A stretch of DNA of 64,000 bases from Longimicrobiales bacterium. Lineage in GTDB: Bacteria; Gemmatimonadota; Gemmatimonadetes; Longimicrobiales; Gaopeijiaceae. The position numbers and the translations under genes were made by a program. Below are positions 27,203 to 34,704 of the stretch, in pieces. The stretch is taken from assembly GCA_958295645.1 (NCBI GenBank), contig OY282361.1, forward strand, positions 828,927-892,926. Direction: 5' to 3'. The stretch's first letter is position 1, and every line of letters begins with the position of its first letter. The notes below the pieces were generated by a model. It ran no database searches and had not been told where the DNA came from. It worked only from the letters and a program-made list of their open reading frames with translations.

Positions 27203-28273
27203 TCAAGAATGTGCCAGCGGGCGGGGCAGGCGGCAACGCGCGGCGCCCCAGGCGTCGTCCGTCGATTGCGACGCGAGATGGATTGCCAAGCGCACGGCTT
27301 CGGTCATGGACGAGGGGTCGGCGGCGTCCTGGCCTGCGATGGCGAATGCCGTGCCATGGTCGGGAGAGGTGCGCGGGAACGGAAGGCCGATGGTCGCGTT
27401 GACGCCTCGCCGAAAGGCCGCGGTCTTGAAGGCGGCCATGCCCACGTCGTGATACGGCGCCACCACGGCGTCGAACTCGCCGGAGAAGGCCCGGCCGAAG
27501 ACGGTGTCGGCGGGAAACGGACCGGAGACGACGGCGGGATCGTCCTCCAGGATCTCCAGCGCGGCGGGGTAGACGGCTTGCTCCTCGGAACCGAAGAGGC
27601 CGCCGTCCGAGGCGTGAGGATTGAGTGCGCAAAGAGCAATGCGCGGGACGGCGATTCGCCAGTGGGCGCGCAGTGCGGCCGAGAGCAGGCGGGTCTGGGA
27701 GACCAGCAGGCCGGAGGTCACGAGGGCGGGCACCTGGGCCAAGGCGACGTGCGTGGTTGCGAGCAGCACTCGCTTGGGCGCGGCCCTGGGTGAGCCGCCC
27801 CTCGACGCAGACTGGCTCTGCGCGGCATGCGCTTCGTCGGCGCACATGAGCATTCCGACCCGAGCCGCGCCGCAGAGTTCCGCCAGCATCTCGGTGTGCC
27901 CGGGCCGGTAGCCCGCCCGCGCCAGCGCCGGTTTCTCCAACGGGGCGGTCACGACTGCGCTCGCCTCGCCGCCCAGCGCCAACGCCGTCGCCCGTTCGAC
28001 GGCCAGTCCCGCCGCCCGTCCCGGCGCCAAGCCGGCCGCGCCCCCCTCCACCGGTTCGAACTCGCAGCAACGGGGCAGGGAGGCGAAGGCCTCGGCGCAC
28101 TCCACGGGACCGACAACGCGCGCGAAGTACGCAGTCCCCTCCCGCGCAAGTGCGGCTAGCGCCTTTGCGGCCACCTCAGGTCCCACGCCCCGCGGGTCGC
28201 CCGCCGTCACCGCCAAGCGCGGGACGTCCGCTTGCAGCCGCACGCCCCGCGGGTCGCCCGCCGTCACCGCCAA
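27203..28273 (-). CDS. pdxA: 4-hydroxythreonine-4-phosphate dehydrogenase
   Basis: NAD- and metal-dependent enzyme of the DXP-dependent pyridoxal phosphate route. Family segments are clear: TAGDPRGVGPEVAAKAL, PLEKPAL, GHTEMLAELC, ALNPHASDGGLFGSEE, GPFPADTVF, DAVVAPYHDVGMAAFKTAAF and GLPFPRTSPDHGTAFAIAG, with metal-ligand histidines. The start region is duplicated: LAVTAGDPRGV occurs twice, 19 codons apart. The frame can begin at TTG 28273, CTG 28237 or TTG 28216; the last two place the N-terminus where the family normally has it. A nearby ATG at about 28299 is out of frame and meets TGA after ten codons. Confidence 0.92.
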   Translation of the reverse strand: MAVTAGDPRGVRLQADVPRLAVTAGDPRGVGPEVAAKALAALAREGTAYFARVVGPVECAEAFASLPRCCEFEPVEGGAAGLAPGRAAGLAVERATALALGGEASAVVTAPLEKPALARAGYRPGHTEMLAELCGAARVGMLMCADEAHAAQSQSASRGGSPRAAPKRVLLATTHVALAQVPALVTSGLLVSQTRLLSAALRAHWRIAVPRIALCALNPHASDGGLFGSEEQAVYPAALEILEDDPAVVSGPFPADTVFGRAFSGEFDAVVAPYHDVGMAAFKTAAFRRGVNATIGLPFPRTSPDHGTAFAIAGQDAADPSSMTEAVRLAIHLASQSTDDAWGAARCRLPRPLAHS

Positions 28274-28278
28274 GCGCG
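28184..28278 (-). repeat. 38-base exact direct repeat (period 57) at pdxA start
   Basis: 28184-28221 and 28241-28278 are identical and lie 57 bases apart, so 19 codons at the beginning of pdxA are duplicated in frame. Similarity continues imperfectly upstream of both copies (CAAGCGG plus a few bases), with one base missing in the distal copy. Confidence 0.9.
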
Positions 28279-28337: not shown

Positions 28338-29696
28338 TCAGTTGGACTTGATTTCGACGTACGTCTTGGCCCGGAGCCCATCCAGCAGCGCCGCGAAGCG
28401 CTTCTGCTGAACCAGGCTGGTGCGGATGTCGTCGCGCAGGTCTTCGAACTCGAACGCTCCGGCCTCGCGGGTGCCCACGACCTTGAGAACGGCGAAGTGC
28501 TCCTTGCCCCGGTACGAGAACTGGATGGGGCCGAGGACTTCTCCGACGGTTTGTTCCCCGCCGAGCGGCGCCAGGTACGCAGGCGGAAGCATCTGCGCGA
28601 CTTGCTGCCGCGGCACGGTGGCCGAATCGGCCCGGAAAGGGAAGACCAGCGGATCGTGGTGCTCGTCTATGATCTCGCGGAGGCTCCGCCCGTCTCGCGC
28701 CTGCGCAGTCAAATCCTCGGCGAGGTCGCGCGCCCGCGCCAAGTCGGCGGTTCCCGTCTCGGGAATGACGAGAATGTGGCGGGCCCGGCGTTCGGCGAAG
28801 CGCACTTGGTCGACCTGGATGATGTGGTATCCGAAGTTGGTCTCGACGACCTCGCTGACCTGTCCTTCGAGCAGGCTGAAGGCGGCGTCCTCGAACTCCT
28901 CGACGAAGGCGCCCTCCCTGCGGAACCATCCCAGGTCCCCGCCCGCAGGGGCCGATCCGGGATCCTGCGAGTACGTTCGGGCCAGCTCGGCAAAGTCCTC
29001 TCCGGCCCGCGCCCTTTCCAGCAGGGACTGGGCCGTGGCCCGGGCGGCCGCCTTCGCAGAGTCGGCCGGCGCCACCGACAGCACGGCCTGCAGGAAGGTG
29101 ATGGTCGCCGGCCGCTCCTGCAACGTCTCCCGGCCCGCCTCGAACATGGCCCGCATTTCCTCTTCCGAGACCTCCACCGCCGTGCCGCCCATGTTCATCT
29201 GCAGGAAGAGCTCGACGAGCTTCTGTTGGCGGACTTGCTCGCGCAGCCTCTCGCGGTATCCCTGCACGGTGAGCCCGGCGCTCTGCAACGCCTGTTCCAT
29301 CTCGGAGCGCGAGCTGTAGTTGCCTTGCACGTCGTCGAAATGCGCTTGGACCGCCTCCTCGACGGCAGTTTCCTCGACCGAGAGCAAGGTGTCGGCGGCG
29401 GCCGTTTGCAACACGATCTGGTGATTCACCAAGTCGTCGAGCTGCTCGCGGAGGAACTGGTCGCGCTCGGCGCTGCCCTCCGGGGGAACCGGCTGTCCTT
29501 GGCTCCGTAGCTCGTTCTCCCGCTGGAGAAGCTGGGAAAGGAGGATGACGGAGTCCCCGACCACGGCCACCACTCGGTCCACCGGCAACCTCTCGGCAGC
29601 CTGTCCCTGGAGGGGGACGGGAAGAGTTGCAGCGGCCAGGAGGGCCGCGGCGAGGCGGCTTCCGAGGCGGTTCTGGCGCAATGGCCTGCACGACAT
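28338..29696 (-). CDS. surA: SurA-like periplasmic peptidyl-prolyl isomerase
   Basis: Periplasmic chaperone of 452 residues for outer-membrane proteins. A signal peptide spans about residues 1-33 (LAAALLAAATLPVPLQGQAAE). The SurA N-terminal domain begins VDRVVAVVGDSVILLSQL. A parvulin domain lies at about 180-290 with FAELARTYSQDPGSAPAGGDLGWF and FGYHIIQVDQV, followed by a second, poorer parvulin-like part (ARDGRSLREIIDEHHDP ... KEHFAVLKVV). It is one of two parvulin genes in a row; the other is the tail of the mfd frame, 46 bases upstream. pdxA follows downstream, an order also known from Gram-negative surA-pdxA operons. Confidence 0.92.
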   Translation of the reverse strand: MSCRPLRQNRLGSRLAAALLAAATLPVPLQGQAAERLPVDRVVAVVGDSVILLSQLLQRENELRSQGQPVPPEGSAERDQFLREQLDDLVNHQIVLQTAAADTLLSVEETAVEEAVQAHFDDVQGNYSSRSEMEQALQSAGLTVQGYRERLREQVRQQKLVELFLQMNMGGTAVEVSEEEMRAMFEAGRETLQERPATITFLQAVLSVAPADSAKAAARATAQSLLERARAGEDFAELARTYSQDPGSAPAGGDLGWFRREGAFVEEFEDAAFSLLEGQVSEVVETNFGYHIIQVDQVRFAERRARHILVIPETGTADLARARDLAEDLTAQARDGRSLREIIDEHHDPLVFPFRADSATVPRQQVAQMLPPAYLAPLGGEQTVGEVLGPIQFSYRGKEHFAVLKVVGTREAGAFEFEDLRDDIRTSLVQQKRFAALLDGLRAKTYVEIKSN

Positions 29697-29742: not shown

Positions 29743-31221
29743 CTAGTAGGGTTGGAGGGCCCGCACCCGCCGGGTGGTTGTCGCCACGCGGTGGGCGTGG
29801 ACGCTCCATGCGCCCCCGGCTCTCAAGAGAAAGCTAACGTTGCCGAGAGGGACGATCGGCTGCTGGCCCGAGACCACGCGCACAAGGGCGGCTTCGACCA
29901 GGGCTTCGACCCGCTCGGCCGGCGTGGCCGGCTGAGGAAGCGAGCCGCTCTCGCGTTGCAGGGCTTCGACAGGCTCCGCGGGCATGGCCGGCTGCGCTTC
30001 CGCCTCCTGCAACGAATCGGCCGCGCCGGGCGCCGGTCCCGCCGCCGGGTCCGGGTCGTCGTGGAGCCCGATTCGCCGGGCGCGTTCCCGGATGGCCTCG
30101 CGCGCCTCGGCGGCCAGCGAGTCCCTCTCCGCGTCGCTCGGCGAAAGGCCGCGGGCGCGCGCCTCGGCGAACAGAAGTTCCTCGCGGCCGAGCCGGAGGA
30201 GAGCCGCCTCAAGCTCTTCGTCGGAGGCGCCGGCCACTCCTTCGGCGAATCCGTCCGGCGAACGTCGCGCCAGGAATACGAAGTCGGAAGCCGTGTACGC
30301 GCCGCCGCTCCATGTGAGCAACGGGCGTTCGCCGGCACGCGGGGCGAGGCGGGAGGGCCGCGACCGGGCCAGTGCGCGGGAGGCCTCCACCGCGCCGCTC
30401 GCGAGGGCCAATCCGGCCGCGGAGTCCAGCATCTGCACGAAGGCCGCCTCCACCTCTGCGAGGCGTTCGAGCCGGATGAGCGCGCGAAAGTCGTCGGCCA
30501 CCTCCGAGAGTTCGGGGATGTCGATGCGCTCCAGCTTCAGCAAGTGGTACCCCAGCCGGGTCCTGACGGGGCCGCCCACCTCGCCGGGGCTCATGCCGAA
30601 CACGGCGCTGTCCACGGGGCCCAGCATCTCCCCCCGCACGAAGCTGCCCAGACTCCCGCCGCGCCTCGCATTGCCCGCGTCGTCGCTGAAGGCCGCGGCC
30701 AGGCGCGCGAAGTCCTCGCCCTCGGCCAAGCGCGCCCGCAGAGCGTTGGCCGCCGCCAAGACGCTGTCCTGCTGCAGCCGCGTCGCGTCCGTCGGGAAGA
30801 GCAGCAGGATTTGGGAGGCGGTCGCGCGGGCCCCGGGCAACTCCGCGGCGAAGCGCTCGGCCATTTCCCGCTCGCTGACGACCGTGTCCACCTCGAGCGC
30901 GTCCTCGCGGAGACGTTCCAACATCCGTTCGCGGAGCCCCGGTTCGATGGCCTCGCCGACATCGAGGCCGCCCAGCGTGGGGTCGGACGTCATCTCGGTC
31001 GCCAGCAACGTGTAGTCCACCCACAACTCGGCCACCACCCGCACCACCTGCGTGTCCGCGGGAACCGTGCTGTGCTCCGCCACGAGGGCCGCCGCCCCCT
31101 CCACGTCCAGCCGGTGTCCGGCCGCTTCGGCCAGGGGACCCCCGCCGCAACCGCCCGCCAGCAACGCGGCACCCACAGCGACCAACGGCGCCCGAGTCCG
31201 ACTCCCCCCGTTGCGCGGTTG
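29743..31221 (-). other. Parvulin lipoprotein segment downstream of Mfd in the same frame
   Basis: Region that by content is an independent exported protein. RNGGSRTRAPLVAVGAALLAGGC is a textbook lipoprotein signal split here by description only: Arg-rich start, hydrophobic core, LAGG/C lipobox. A parvulin-type isomerase domain follows (ATASQILLLFPTD, FARLAAAFSDDAGNARRGGSLG, RTRLGYHLLKLERI) and a long C-terminal helical part (ESGSLPQPATPAERVEALVE). Such a chaperone works outside the cytoplasm, which conflicts with a covalent link to Mfd. It is therefore more likely translated separately, from TTG 31185 or another non-standard start, than as a fusion. Confidence 0.7.
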
Positions 31222-34200
31222 GACGAGGGGCTTGCCCGCCTGAGCTCCGTCCGCTCGTCCTTGTTCCGAGGGCTTGCCCGCGCCGGAGCCGCCGGTCCCT
31301 CCCAGGGCGTCCAGCGCACCAACCGCGATTCCCGTCAGGCGCTCCTCAGTCCCGCTCTCCAGCACGACCGAGAGGGGCGCGAGGCGGGGAACCTCCACGC
31401 TCACGTCTTCGCCGCCCAGCGCATCTGCGAGCGCCGACATCCTGGGCGCCACGTCCTGCCGGAAGTCCAGCCGCGCACGTCGTCCGTGCACGTGAATGCG
31501 GGCTGCTCCGGCGTCTCGGCCCGCTTGGGCGAGCAGGGCTTGGTCCACGAGTCTCCTCGCTTCAGGGGGAAGAGGTCCGAACCGGTCGGCCATCTCCTCG
31601 GCCAGCCGGGCCGCATCGCCACGATCCGAAACGCCTGCCAACCGCCGGTAAACATGGAGCTTCTGCCGCTCGTCGGCCACATAGTCGGACGGCAAGTAGG
31701 CGCCTTGCTCCATGGCGACCTCGGGCTTGGGAAAGTCGCGCCGCCCGGGCTGGTTGCGGATTCGCTGGACGGCTTGGTTCAGAAGCCGCAGGTAGGTCTC
31801 GACTCCCACCGCGTGCGCAAAGCCGGACTGGTCGTCGCCCAGCAGGTTGCCGGCGCCGCGCGCTTGCAGGTCGCGCAGGGCGATCTGATAGCCGCTGCCC
31901 AGCTCCGTGTAGTGCTCCAGCACGCTCAGCCGCCCGGCGGCCTCCTCGGAAATGCGTTCCGGGGCGATCAGATAGCAGTAGGCGCGCCGATCCGACCTGC
32001 CCACCCGGCCGCGTATCTGATACAGTTGCGACAGGCCGAAGCGATCCGCCCGGTCCACGATCAGCGTGTTGGCGTTCGAAACGTCCAGACCGTTCTCGAT
32101 GATCGCCGAGCACACCAACACGTCGGTGCGGCCGCCGGCGAACTCGGTCATGGTCCGGTGGAGCCGGCTCGCGCGCATCTGGCCGTGGGCGACGTCCACG
32201 CGGGCCGAGGCCACGAGGGCGCGCACGCGTTCGGCCGCGGTCTCGATGGTCTCCACGCGGTTGTGGAGGAAGAACACTTGGCCGCCGCGGTCGATCTCCC
32301 GCTCGCAGGCCTCCGCCACGACTCGGTCGTGCCAGGGAACGACGCGCGTGACGATGGGGAGGCGGTCGCGGGGCGGCGTGCGGATCAGCGACATGTCTCG
32401 GATGCCGGCCAGCGAGAGATGGAGCGTGCGGGGAATCGGGGTGGCCGAGAGCGTGAGCACGTCCACCGACGTCCGCAGCTGCTTGAGCCGTTCCTTCTGC
32501 CGCACGCCCAGGCGCTGTTCCTCGTCGACGACCAGCAGGCCCAGGTCCTTGAAGACGATGTCGCCCGACAGCAGCCGGTGCGTGCCCACGACCACGTCCA
32601 CGGCGCCGTCTCGCAAGCCGGCCAGGACTTCGCGCTGCTTGGCGGTCCCTTCGAAGCGCGACAACGAGGCGACCTGCACGGGGTAGGTGTCCAGGCGTTC
32701 CTTGAACGACCCGGCGTGCTGCGCCGCCAAGACCGTGGTCGGGGCCAGGACGGCCACCTGCTTTCCGTCCTGGACGGCCTTGAACGCGGCCCGCACGGCG
32801 ACCTCGGTCTTCCCGTATCCGGCGTCCCCGCAGACGAGGCGGTCCATGATTGCGGGGGATTCCATGTCGCGCTTGACCTCTTCCGCCGCGCGCCGCTGGT
32901 CGGGGGTGTCCTCGTAGGGAAACGCGGACTCCATTTCGCGTTGCCAGCGCGTGTCGTGCGAGAACGCGTGTCCCGGCTTGGACTTGCGCAGCGCGTACAG
33001 GTCGAGGAGCTCGGCCGTCATCCGCTGGATCGCCTCTTCGGTTCTGCGCTTCAGATTCCGCCAGCGCCGTCCGCCGATGCGGTCGAGGCGCGGCGGCTCC
33101 GCTTCGGCGTCGGGCGCGACCCAGCGCTCGACTTGGTCCAGCGCGTGGACGGGCACGCGCAACAGCTCCTCGCCGGCGTAGACGATCACCAGCGCATCGA
33201 GCGATTCGCCGCCGATCTCGAAGCGTTCCAGGCCTCGAAAGCGGCCGATGCCGTGGTCCATGTGCACGACGTGGTCGCCCGGCGACAGCTGGGCGAGGCT
33301 CTCGACGGAGGCGGCTCCGCGGAACCGGCGCGTGGAGGGCCGCCGAAGCCGGCGGCGGAATATCTCGTGGTCGGTGAGGACGTTGGCGGGCGGCGAGGCG
33401 GTGGGCAGGCGAAACCCTCCGGAGATGCTGCCGGCGACGACGGTGCAGCCTGCGGACGGGGCGCCCTGCCGGTCCGACACGAGTTCCTCGATCCTTGTCG
33501 CCTGGCTTTGGTTCTCGCAGAGGATCGTGGTCGAGGCGCCCGCTCCCGCCGCGGTCGCCAGGAACTTCCGAAGGACCTGCGTGCTGCGATCCACGTGCGG
33601 CGGGGGGAGGGCCGAGAACACGACATCGCCCGCCGGCGTCTCGGTCGTGTGGAGCCGGGCGAAGCGGGCCGCGCGCTCGGCGAACCTGCGCGGCTCCAGG
33701 AACAGCTCCGCCGGGGCGACGGCGGGATTGCCGTGGCGCTTGGCCCGTTGGAAGCGGCGGCTCGCCTCCCGCCAAAGGGCCTCCGCCTCGCCGGCCCAGT
33801 CCGCTTCTCCGTCGCGGACCAAGACGGCGCCGCCCGGCAGGCGGTCCAAGAGCGAGGCGGGCCCTTCGCCCACCGCTCTGTGGTCGCCGTCGTGTCTTGC
33901 GGCCGTCCGAAGCCGATCCGGCGCGCTGGGCGCCCTGGCCTCGCCGCCGTCGAAGGCGACCGGCAAGATGTCCACGCTCTGCACGACGTGGGTCGAGAGC
34001 TGGTCGCGTACGTCGAAGAGGCGCACCGACTCCACGTCGTCGCCGCTGAACTCGATTCGGGCCGGGCCGGCCGCCCCCAGCGAGAACACGTCCACGATCC
34101 CGCCGCGCACGGCGTAGCACCCCACTTCTTCGACGGTGGGCACGCGACGGAAGCCCCGGTCTTCGAGGGCCCCGATCACGGCGTCGCGGCCGGCGGGCGT

Positions 34201-34704
34201 TCCGGCGGCGACGGTGAAGCGAAGTCCGGCCAAGTCGCCTGGGATTCGGGCCACCTCCTGCAACGCGCGGCGCGTGGCCACCAGGATGCGCGCCCGGCCG
34301 GCCAGCACGGACTCCACCGCCTCCACTCTCTGGCCGGACGCCTCGGGCGACTCGCCGCCGCCGTCCTCGGCGGCGAGCTCGCGTTGCGGATAGTGCACGG
34401 CGGCCCCAGGGGCCAAGACCTCCAGGTCGCCGAAGCGCTCCTCGGCTTCGGCCGGCCCGGGCGCAACGACCACCCAGAGGCGGTTCGCCATTCCGTCCGA
34501 CAAGGCGGCCACCAGCGCCATGGGCAACGAGCCCGCCGTCCCGCCGACCGTTCGCCGCTGGCCGGGCGGCGGCATTCCCGCAACCAGCGCTTCGAACGCC
34601 CCCGTCGAGGCCGCAGCCGCGGCGGCGGGATGACGGCCGGACCACGCGGACATCCTCTGGGCTTTCGGCGAGCCTGCCGCGCGAGTCGAGCTACTGGCCG
34701 GCAC
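29743..34704 (-). CDS. mfd: Mfd transcription-repair coupling factor, fused in frame to a parvulin lipoprotein
   Basis: The first ~1135 residues are a complete Mfd, which removes stalled RNA polymerase and recruits UvrA. Visible parts: UvrB-like N-terminal domain (RRALQEVARIPGDL), RNA-polymerase-interacting module (GDHVVHMDHGIGRFRGLE near 490-510), helicase Walker A GDAGYGKTE near 623, VVDEEQRLGV near 725, LTLSATPIPRTL, and the TRG/D7 end. Without any stop the frame continues through a Gly/Lys-rich linker into RNGGSRTR and a lipobox LLAGGC at 1186, then a ~468-residue parvulin protein. No ATG or GTG lies in frame at that boundary before the hydrophobic core; a TTG at 31185 is the nearest. ATG 34653 (MSAWSGRH) is a better Mfd start than GTG 34704. 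Confidence 0.9.
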   Translation of the reverse strand: MPASSSTRAAGSPKAQRMSAWSGRHPAAAAAASTGAFEALVAGMPPPGQRRTVGGTAGSLPMALVAALSDGMANRLWVVVAPGPAEAEERFGDLEVLAPGAAVHYPQRELAAEDGGGESPEASGQRVEAVESVLAGRARILVATRRALQEVARIPGDLAGLRFTVAAGTPAGRDAVIGALEDRGFRRVPTVEEVGCYAVRGGIVDVFSLGAAGPARIEFSGDDVESVRLFDVRDQLSTHVVQSVDILPVAFDGGEARAPSAPDRLRTAARHDGDHRAVGEGPASLLDRLPGGAVLVRDGEADWAGEAEALWREASRRFQRAKRHGNPAVAPAELFLEPRRFAERAARFARLHTTETPAGDVVFSALPPPHVDRSTQVLRKFLATAAGAGASTTILCENQSQATRIEELVSDRQGAPSAGCTVVAGSISGGFRLPTASPPANVLTDHEIFRRRLRRPSTRRFRGAASVESLAQLSPGDHVVHMDHGIGRFRGLERFEIGGESLDALVIVYAGEELLRVPVHALDQVERWVAPDAEAEPPRLDRIGGRRWRNLKRRTEEAIQRMTAELLDLYALRKSKPGHAFSHDTRWQREMESAFPYEDTPDQRRAAEEVKRDMESPAIMDRLVCGDAGYGKTEVAVRAAFKAVQDGKQVAVLAPTTVLAAQHAGSFKERLDTYPVQVASLSRFEGTAKQREVLAGLRDGAVDVVVGTHRLLSGDIVFKDLGLLVVDEEQRLGVRQKERLKQLRTSVDVLTLSATPIPRTLHLSLAGIRDMSLIRTPPRDRLPIVTRVVPWHDRVVAEACEREIDRGGQVFFLHNRVETIETAAERVRALVASARVDVAHGQMRASRLHRTMTEFAGGRTDVLVCSAIIENGLDVSNANTLIVDRADRFGLSQLYQIRGRVGRSDRRAYCYLIAPERISEEAAGRLSVLEHYTELGSGYQIALRDLQARGAGNLLGDDQSGFAHAVGVETYLRLLNQAVQRIRNQPGRRDFPKPEVAMEQGAYLPSDYVADERQKLHVYRRLAGVSDRGDAARLAEEMADRFGPLPPEARRLVDQALLAQAGRDAGAARIHVHGRRARLDFRQDVAPRMSALADALGGEDVSVEVPRLAPLSVVLESGTEERLTGIAVGALDALGGTGGSGAGKPSEQGRADGAQAGKPLVQPRNGGSRTRAPLVAVGAALLAGGCGGGPLAEAAGHRLDVEGAAALVAEHSTVPADTQVVRVVAELWVDYTLLATEMTSDPTLGGLDVGEAIEPGLRERMLERLREDALEVDTVVSEREMAERFAAELPGARATASQILLLFPTDATRLQQDSVLAAANALRARLAEGEDFARLAAAFSDDAGNARRGGSLGSFVRGEMLGPVDSAVFGMSPGEVGGPVRTRLGYHLLKLERIDIPELSEVADDFRALIRLERLAEVEAAFVQMLDSAAGLALASGAVEASRALARSRPSRLAPRAGERPLLTWSGGAYTASDFVFLARRSPDGFAEGVAGASDEELEAALLRLGREELLFAEARARGLSPSDAERDSLAAEAREAIRERARRIGLHDDPDPAAGPAPGAADSLQEAEAQPAMPAEPVEALQRESGSLPQPATPAERVEALVEAALVRVVSGQQPIVPLGNVSFLLRAGGAWSVHAHRVATTTRRVRALQPY

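Follow-up and report, generated by a model that had tools for sequence, protein, structure and literature searches.

One of the closest described counterparts of the locus analysed here is FbcH, the cytochrome b-c1 precursor of Bradyrhizobium, which is reportedly cut at an internal signal peptide. The window, a stretch of 64,000 nucleotides from a Longimicrobiales bacterium, resembles FbcH in that two intact proteins share a single open reading frame and are separated in it by an internal export signal. FbcH, however, is said to join two subunits of a membrane complex and to be processed by the general signal peptidase, whereas the signal in the window is a lipoprotein signal that follows a cytoplasmic DNA translocase, and its processing is putative.

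With regard to the boundary between the two genes, coupled translation at ATGA and TGATG overlaps is well documented (PMC6728339), and such overlapping pairs show termination-reinitiation coupling (PMC6728339, PMC10666635). This is the arrangement between mfd and ppi in several close relatives. In contrast, the window lacks both signals, and read-through replaces the coupling.

The joint reading frame

An uninterrupted open reading frame without a stop, of 1653 codons, extends over positions 29743-34704 of the reverse strand. It encodes, in this order, a complete Mfd, a low-complexity linker of ~31 residues and a complete parvulin-type lipoprotein (PPI). The preliminary description had placed Mfd and the lipoprotein in one such frame, and both the frame and the profile matches agree with it. 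The features of the locus are as follows.

31317..34704, reverse strand: Mfd (transcription-repair coupling factor), residues 1-1129 of the joint frame (TIGR00580, Pfam and PDB matches)
31204..31296, reverse strand: low-complexity linker TGGSGAGKPSEQGRADGAQAGKPLVQPRNGG, free of stops in all reverse frames and of in-frame starts, with a weak codon signal
31270..31281, reverse strand: first copy of GCGGGCAAGCCC (exact match)
31228..31239, reverse strand: second copy of GCGGGCAAGCCC (exact match)
31150..31203, reverse strand: internal lipoprotein signal SRTRAPLVAVGAALLAGG, with charged n-region and hydrophobic core (hydropathy, charge)
31183..31185, reverse strand: TTG, the nearest canonical in-frame start, which would leave just 12 residues ahead of the lipid cysteine and lack a charged n-region
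31147..31161, reverse strand: lipobox LAGGC, with the codon of the lipid-acceptor cysteine at 31147-31149 (sequence; aligned with CGPGPLAEA of relatives)
29743..31149, reverse strand: mature parvulin-type lipoprotein (PPI), residues 1186-1653, including the stop (PF00639/PF13616; aligned relatives)
30529..30810, reverse strand: PpiC/rotamase domain, residues 1299-1392 (Pfam match)
28338..29696, reverse strand: surA-like gene, next in the operon (SurA_N and Rotamase matches)

The Mfd part scores 929.4 bits against TIGR00580 (cut-off 800), exhibits the Pfam domains in Mfd order up to residue 1086 (UvrB_inter, CarD_TRCF_RID, DEAD, Helicase_C, TRCF) and matches solved Mfd structures in the PDB at E-values of 1e-190 to 1e-200. 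Its homology with relatives extends to ...ALDALGG, at about 31297, and its evolutionary distance to the outgroup is average for the clade. No second mfd is present in the genome.

The homology of PPI with relatives begins at the lipobox, at about 31149, and its identity to eight aligned relatives is 46-59%. The rotamase domain places it in the PpiC/rotamase family (PF00639, E-value 6.7e-20, 72.3 bits against a cut-off of 21.7). The genome contains no close second ppi, the nearest paralogue being 32% identical over part of the length only. Decay of PPI was rejected, as its evolutionary rate is near normal: the distance to the outgroup is 2.43, slightly high within a clade range of 2.04-2.50.

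Active parvulins exhibit a histidine in an RHILV-like motif. In the alignment with the eight relatives, a glutamine is found at this place in the PPI family, within the motif ASQILL, of which Q, I, and L are invariant; PPI may therefore act as a chaperone without being an active isomerase. The C-terminal region of PPI also exhibits, at about 29860-29950, an insertion resembling a short duplication (QPAMPAEPVEAL...QPATPAERVEAL), which is absent from all eight aligned relatives.

Export signal and translation starts

The segment SRTRAPLVAVGAALLAGG followed by cysteine comprises a charged n-region, a hydrophobic core and the lipobox cysteine, as expected for a lipoprotein; APLVAVGAALLAGG-C is present, with R/K upstream. 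Its mean hydropathy (1.86) and charge (+3) lie inside the range of the real signal peptides of relatives. Nevertheless, PPI has no N-terminal signal peptide with a start codon of its own, since no ATG, GTG or TTG occurs from 14 to about 66 codons before the cysteine. No in-frame ATG, GTG or TTG lies between the C-terminus of Mfd and the hydrophobic core; TTG 31185, GTG 31176 and TTG 31164 are the in-frame starts closest to the lipobox, and the next one upstream, GTG 31365, is within mfd. The codon scan thus agrees with the preliminary description, according to which no in-frame ATG or GTG precedes the core and the nearest start is TTG 31185.

A scan of the three reverse frames from 31500 to 30800 found stops only at 31403, 31348, 31337, and 30992, all in the two other frames, and no reverse frame has a stop between 31337 and 30992. 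A spacer of ~45 codons without a stop in one frame is unremarkable at 70% GC (chance of about 0.4 by our own estimate), and frames that stay open over long stretches by accident are frequent here; for example, the ETF-alpha frame is open back across ETF-beta. The joint absence of stop and start, set against all the relatives, is not what chance would be expected to give.

Translation could begin internally, at TTG 31185 or at a codon within mfd such as GTG 31365, and yield PPI next to the read-through product or as the main product. Beginning at GTG 31365, the signal peptide would have a long n-region, and signal regions of 35-41 residues are found in six relatives (L128, L129, L136, L139, L140, and L142); non-ATG starts also occur in the operon, pdxA apparently using CTG in several relatives. 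On the other hand, TTG 31185 leaves 12 uncharged residues before the cysteine, which is below the usual length of a lipoprotein signal, no Shine-Dalgarno-like sequence was seen by eye at a proper distance, and without an mfd stop termination-reinitiation supplies no ribosomes. We consider the production of two such products quite unlikely.

The junction in relatives

The nearest named relatives are Longimicrobiales/Gemmatimonadota MAGs, and PPI was present in 58/58 genomes of the first search for relatives. The mfd-ppi junction, at which the preliminary description had proposed to look for a stop codon, was read in 84 relatives, of which 83 were readable, G027 having an N-filled mfd end. The two genes are adjacent and an mfd stop precedes ppi in 83/83 readable relatives, so that a stop-free junction occurs in 0/83; in the class-wide sample, too, every other frame-spanning match contains a stop. 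Every relative with a located lipobox has an ATG, GTG or TTG at a workable distance. Four candidates for a second joint frame were rejected: the frame of G027 (open over 1775) contains 291 N at the mfd end, and G029, G044, and G078, picked up through a single long match or an extended open frame, each have an mfd stop. The search for relatives yielded neither a congeneric genome nor a second strain.

Within the closest clade, L124, L126, L129, L133-L135, L138, L141, L143, L144, and L150 have a ppi start that is offset from the mfd stop by -1 (ATGA), +2 (TGATG), +4, +7 or -11/-14, in some cases via alternative starts. Several of these Mfds have variable C-terminal tails that reach into the ppi start. 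The Longimicrobiales contig OX639991.1 (L134/G024) carries the same two proteins in the same order and strand, with a second parvulin (surA-like) gene next to them, its Mfd and PPI being about 74% and about 54% identical to those of the window. Unlike the window, it has an mfd stop and a ppi ATG, which overlap by 4 bases if the upstream ATG is used.

As all 83 readable relatives keep mfd and ppi apart, the joint frame is a derived state of one genome. On these comparisons it is a one-genome oddity, caused by a small mutation or a sequence error, and no established new fusion protein. The preliminary description had taken a stop and a normal start in relatives to speak against a fusion; the relatives do have both, which tells against conservation of the fusion but has no bearing on its presence in this genome itself. 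It had also offered a lost mfd stop, a non-standard start or a Mfd-tethered product. The comparison with relatives bears out the first, as an event derived in this genome, and goes beyond it in that the start was lost too.

A maintained functional fusion, purposely tying Mfd to the membrane through the chaperone, would be in keeping with the continuous frame and with the integrity of both parts. We regard it as highly improbable, since it is conserved in no relative, there is no known reason for a DNA translocase at the envelope, and the lipobox and n-region are still of the free-lipoprotein type.

A proposed loss of the gene boundary

In the closest clade the stop and start signals often overlap or nearly touch, so that one small indel can erase both together. 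We propose that a single indel of the right phase across this overlap would have removed both signals and left the frames in register. A mere shift of the frame by one base within the linker was discarded: as the linker has no stop in any reverse frame, the mfd stop could not be restored in this way, and the stop itself must have been lost or changed. Collapse of the overlap accounts for the joint frame in one step, whether the organism itself carries the change or the consensus alone does.

We give about an even chance to the explanation that an ordinary two-gene boundary was lost recently in a single lineage, and that the internal lipoprotein signal may still direct the export of PPI and its cleavage from Mfd. 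It is favoured by the normal signal, by the near-normal rates of Mfd and PPI, and by the lack of a second mfd and of a close second ppi. It is weakened by the occurrence of the joint frame in one genome only, as a consensus error of a few bases at the stop/start overlap looks alike, and by the weak codon-usage signal of the linker. The GC content by codon position is 0.80/0.69/0.74 in the linker versus 0.75/0.51/0.88 in Mfd, and both these values and the codon-usage scores of the linker are intermediate between coding and non-coding, as expected of former spacer or tail sequence that would have turned coding recently.

The preliminary description had further noted a repeat in the linker and suggested that a duplication had deleted the boundary. 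The 12-mer GCGGGCAAGCCC does occur in exactly two copies, whereas the 42-nt units that hold them agree outside it at about 12/30 positions (by eye), which is the level given by GC-rich sequence. As the flanks differ, this is not a clean duplication, and a tandem duplication via the 12-mer was rejected.

An error of consensus or assembly, in which the organism has the usual overlapping stop and start and the consensus lacks a few bases of the junction, is less likely but a serious alternative. The joint frame occurs in no other genome among the relatives and the class sample, the overlap in relatives means that one small error erases both signals, and a homopolymer, a run of 6 G, lies near the expected ppi start. 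Against this, a single-base frameshift in the linker is insufficient, and the neighbouring genes that are best defined all have their full length (IMPDH 1-449/450, LepA 2-594/595, PBP1A 1-531/535, and P5C dehydrogenase 2-532/533), so the assembly shows no sign of many indels. The genome is one 2.89 Mb contig, and sponge-associated relatives were sequenced with HiFi (PMC12398682); it is plausible that this genome also comes from accurate long reads, which we do not count as evidence.

If the loss of the boundary is real, an ATGA-type overlap can collapse to a fusion in one mutational step, even for products of different compartments, and the question arises whether an internal lipoprotein signal still exports and releases its cargo. 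Should it be an error, it shows that overlapping gene boundaries have to be called with caution in metagenome assemblies.

A possible two-protein precursor

Under the loss of the boundary, the frame would now act as a two-protein precursor, a step that is less certain than the indel. As mfd has no stop, ribosomes that finish it must go on into PPI, and Mfd would be made first. The segment SRTRAPLVAVGAALLAGGC is arranged like a lipoprotein signal, its positive charges lying toward the cytoplasm, so that an internal signal is the model needing the fewest assumptions; it would engage Sec while Mfd stays in the cytoplasm, PPI being exported behind about 1170 cytoplasmic residues. Lipoprotein signal peptidase would then cut before the lipidated cysteine and free PPI as a lipoprotein, leaving a short hydrophobic tail on Mfd; molecules that escape the cut would hold Mfd at the membrane, for which the hydrophobic core is short as a stable anchor, and this weakens the proposal. 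With a single mfd and no close copy of PPI elsewhere in the genome, the joint frame has to supply both activities, if they are needed. Synthesis of a periplasmic lipoprotein in one chain with a DNA-repair translocase of the cytoplasm, followed by a cut at the internal lipobox by lipoprotein signal peptidase, is unlikely. A tryptic peptide across the Mfd tail or across ADGAQAGKPLVQPR of the joint frame would support read-through.

Operon context and the start of pdxA

The operon comprises mfd, ppi, surA, and pdxA, and a second parvulin gene follows mfd-ppi in most relatives. In L128, L133, L134, L138, L140, L142, L143, and L150, pdxA apparently starts at CTG (near 7.7-7.9 kb of each locus). The CTG lies on the surA stop in L133, L138, L143, and L150 (CTGA overlap) and one base past it in L128, L134, L140, and L142 (TGAACTG). 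No in-frame ATG, GTG or TTG is found back to the preceding stop in L138, L140, and L142, nor for 180 codons or more before the conserved N-terminus in L133, L143, and L150. These positions suggest a conserved CTG start fed by termination of surA, and gene callers restricted to ATG/GTG/TTG would truncate pdxA. CUG initiation complexes are the subject, at least in part, of a structural study (PMC11497404). In the window, pdxA exhibits at 28191-28278 an in-frame tandem duplication of 57 nt of its first codons (LAVTAGDPRGVRLQADVPR then LAVTAGDPRGVGPEV), and a TTG is its only start.
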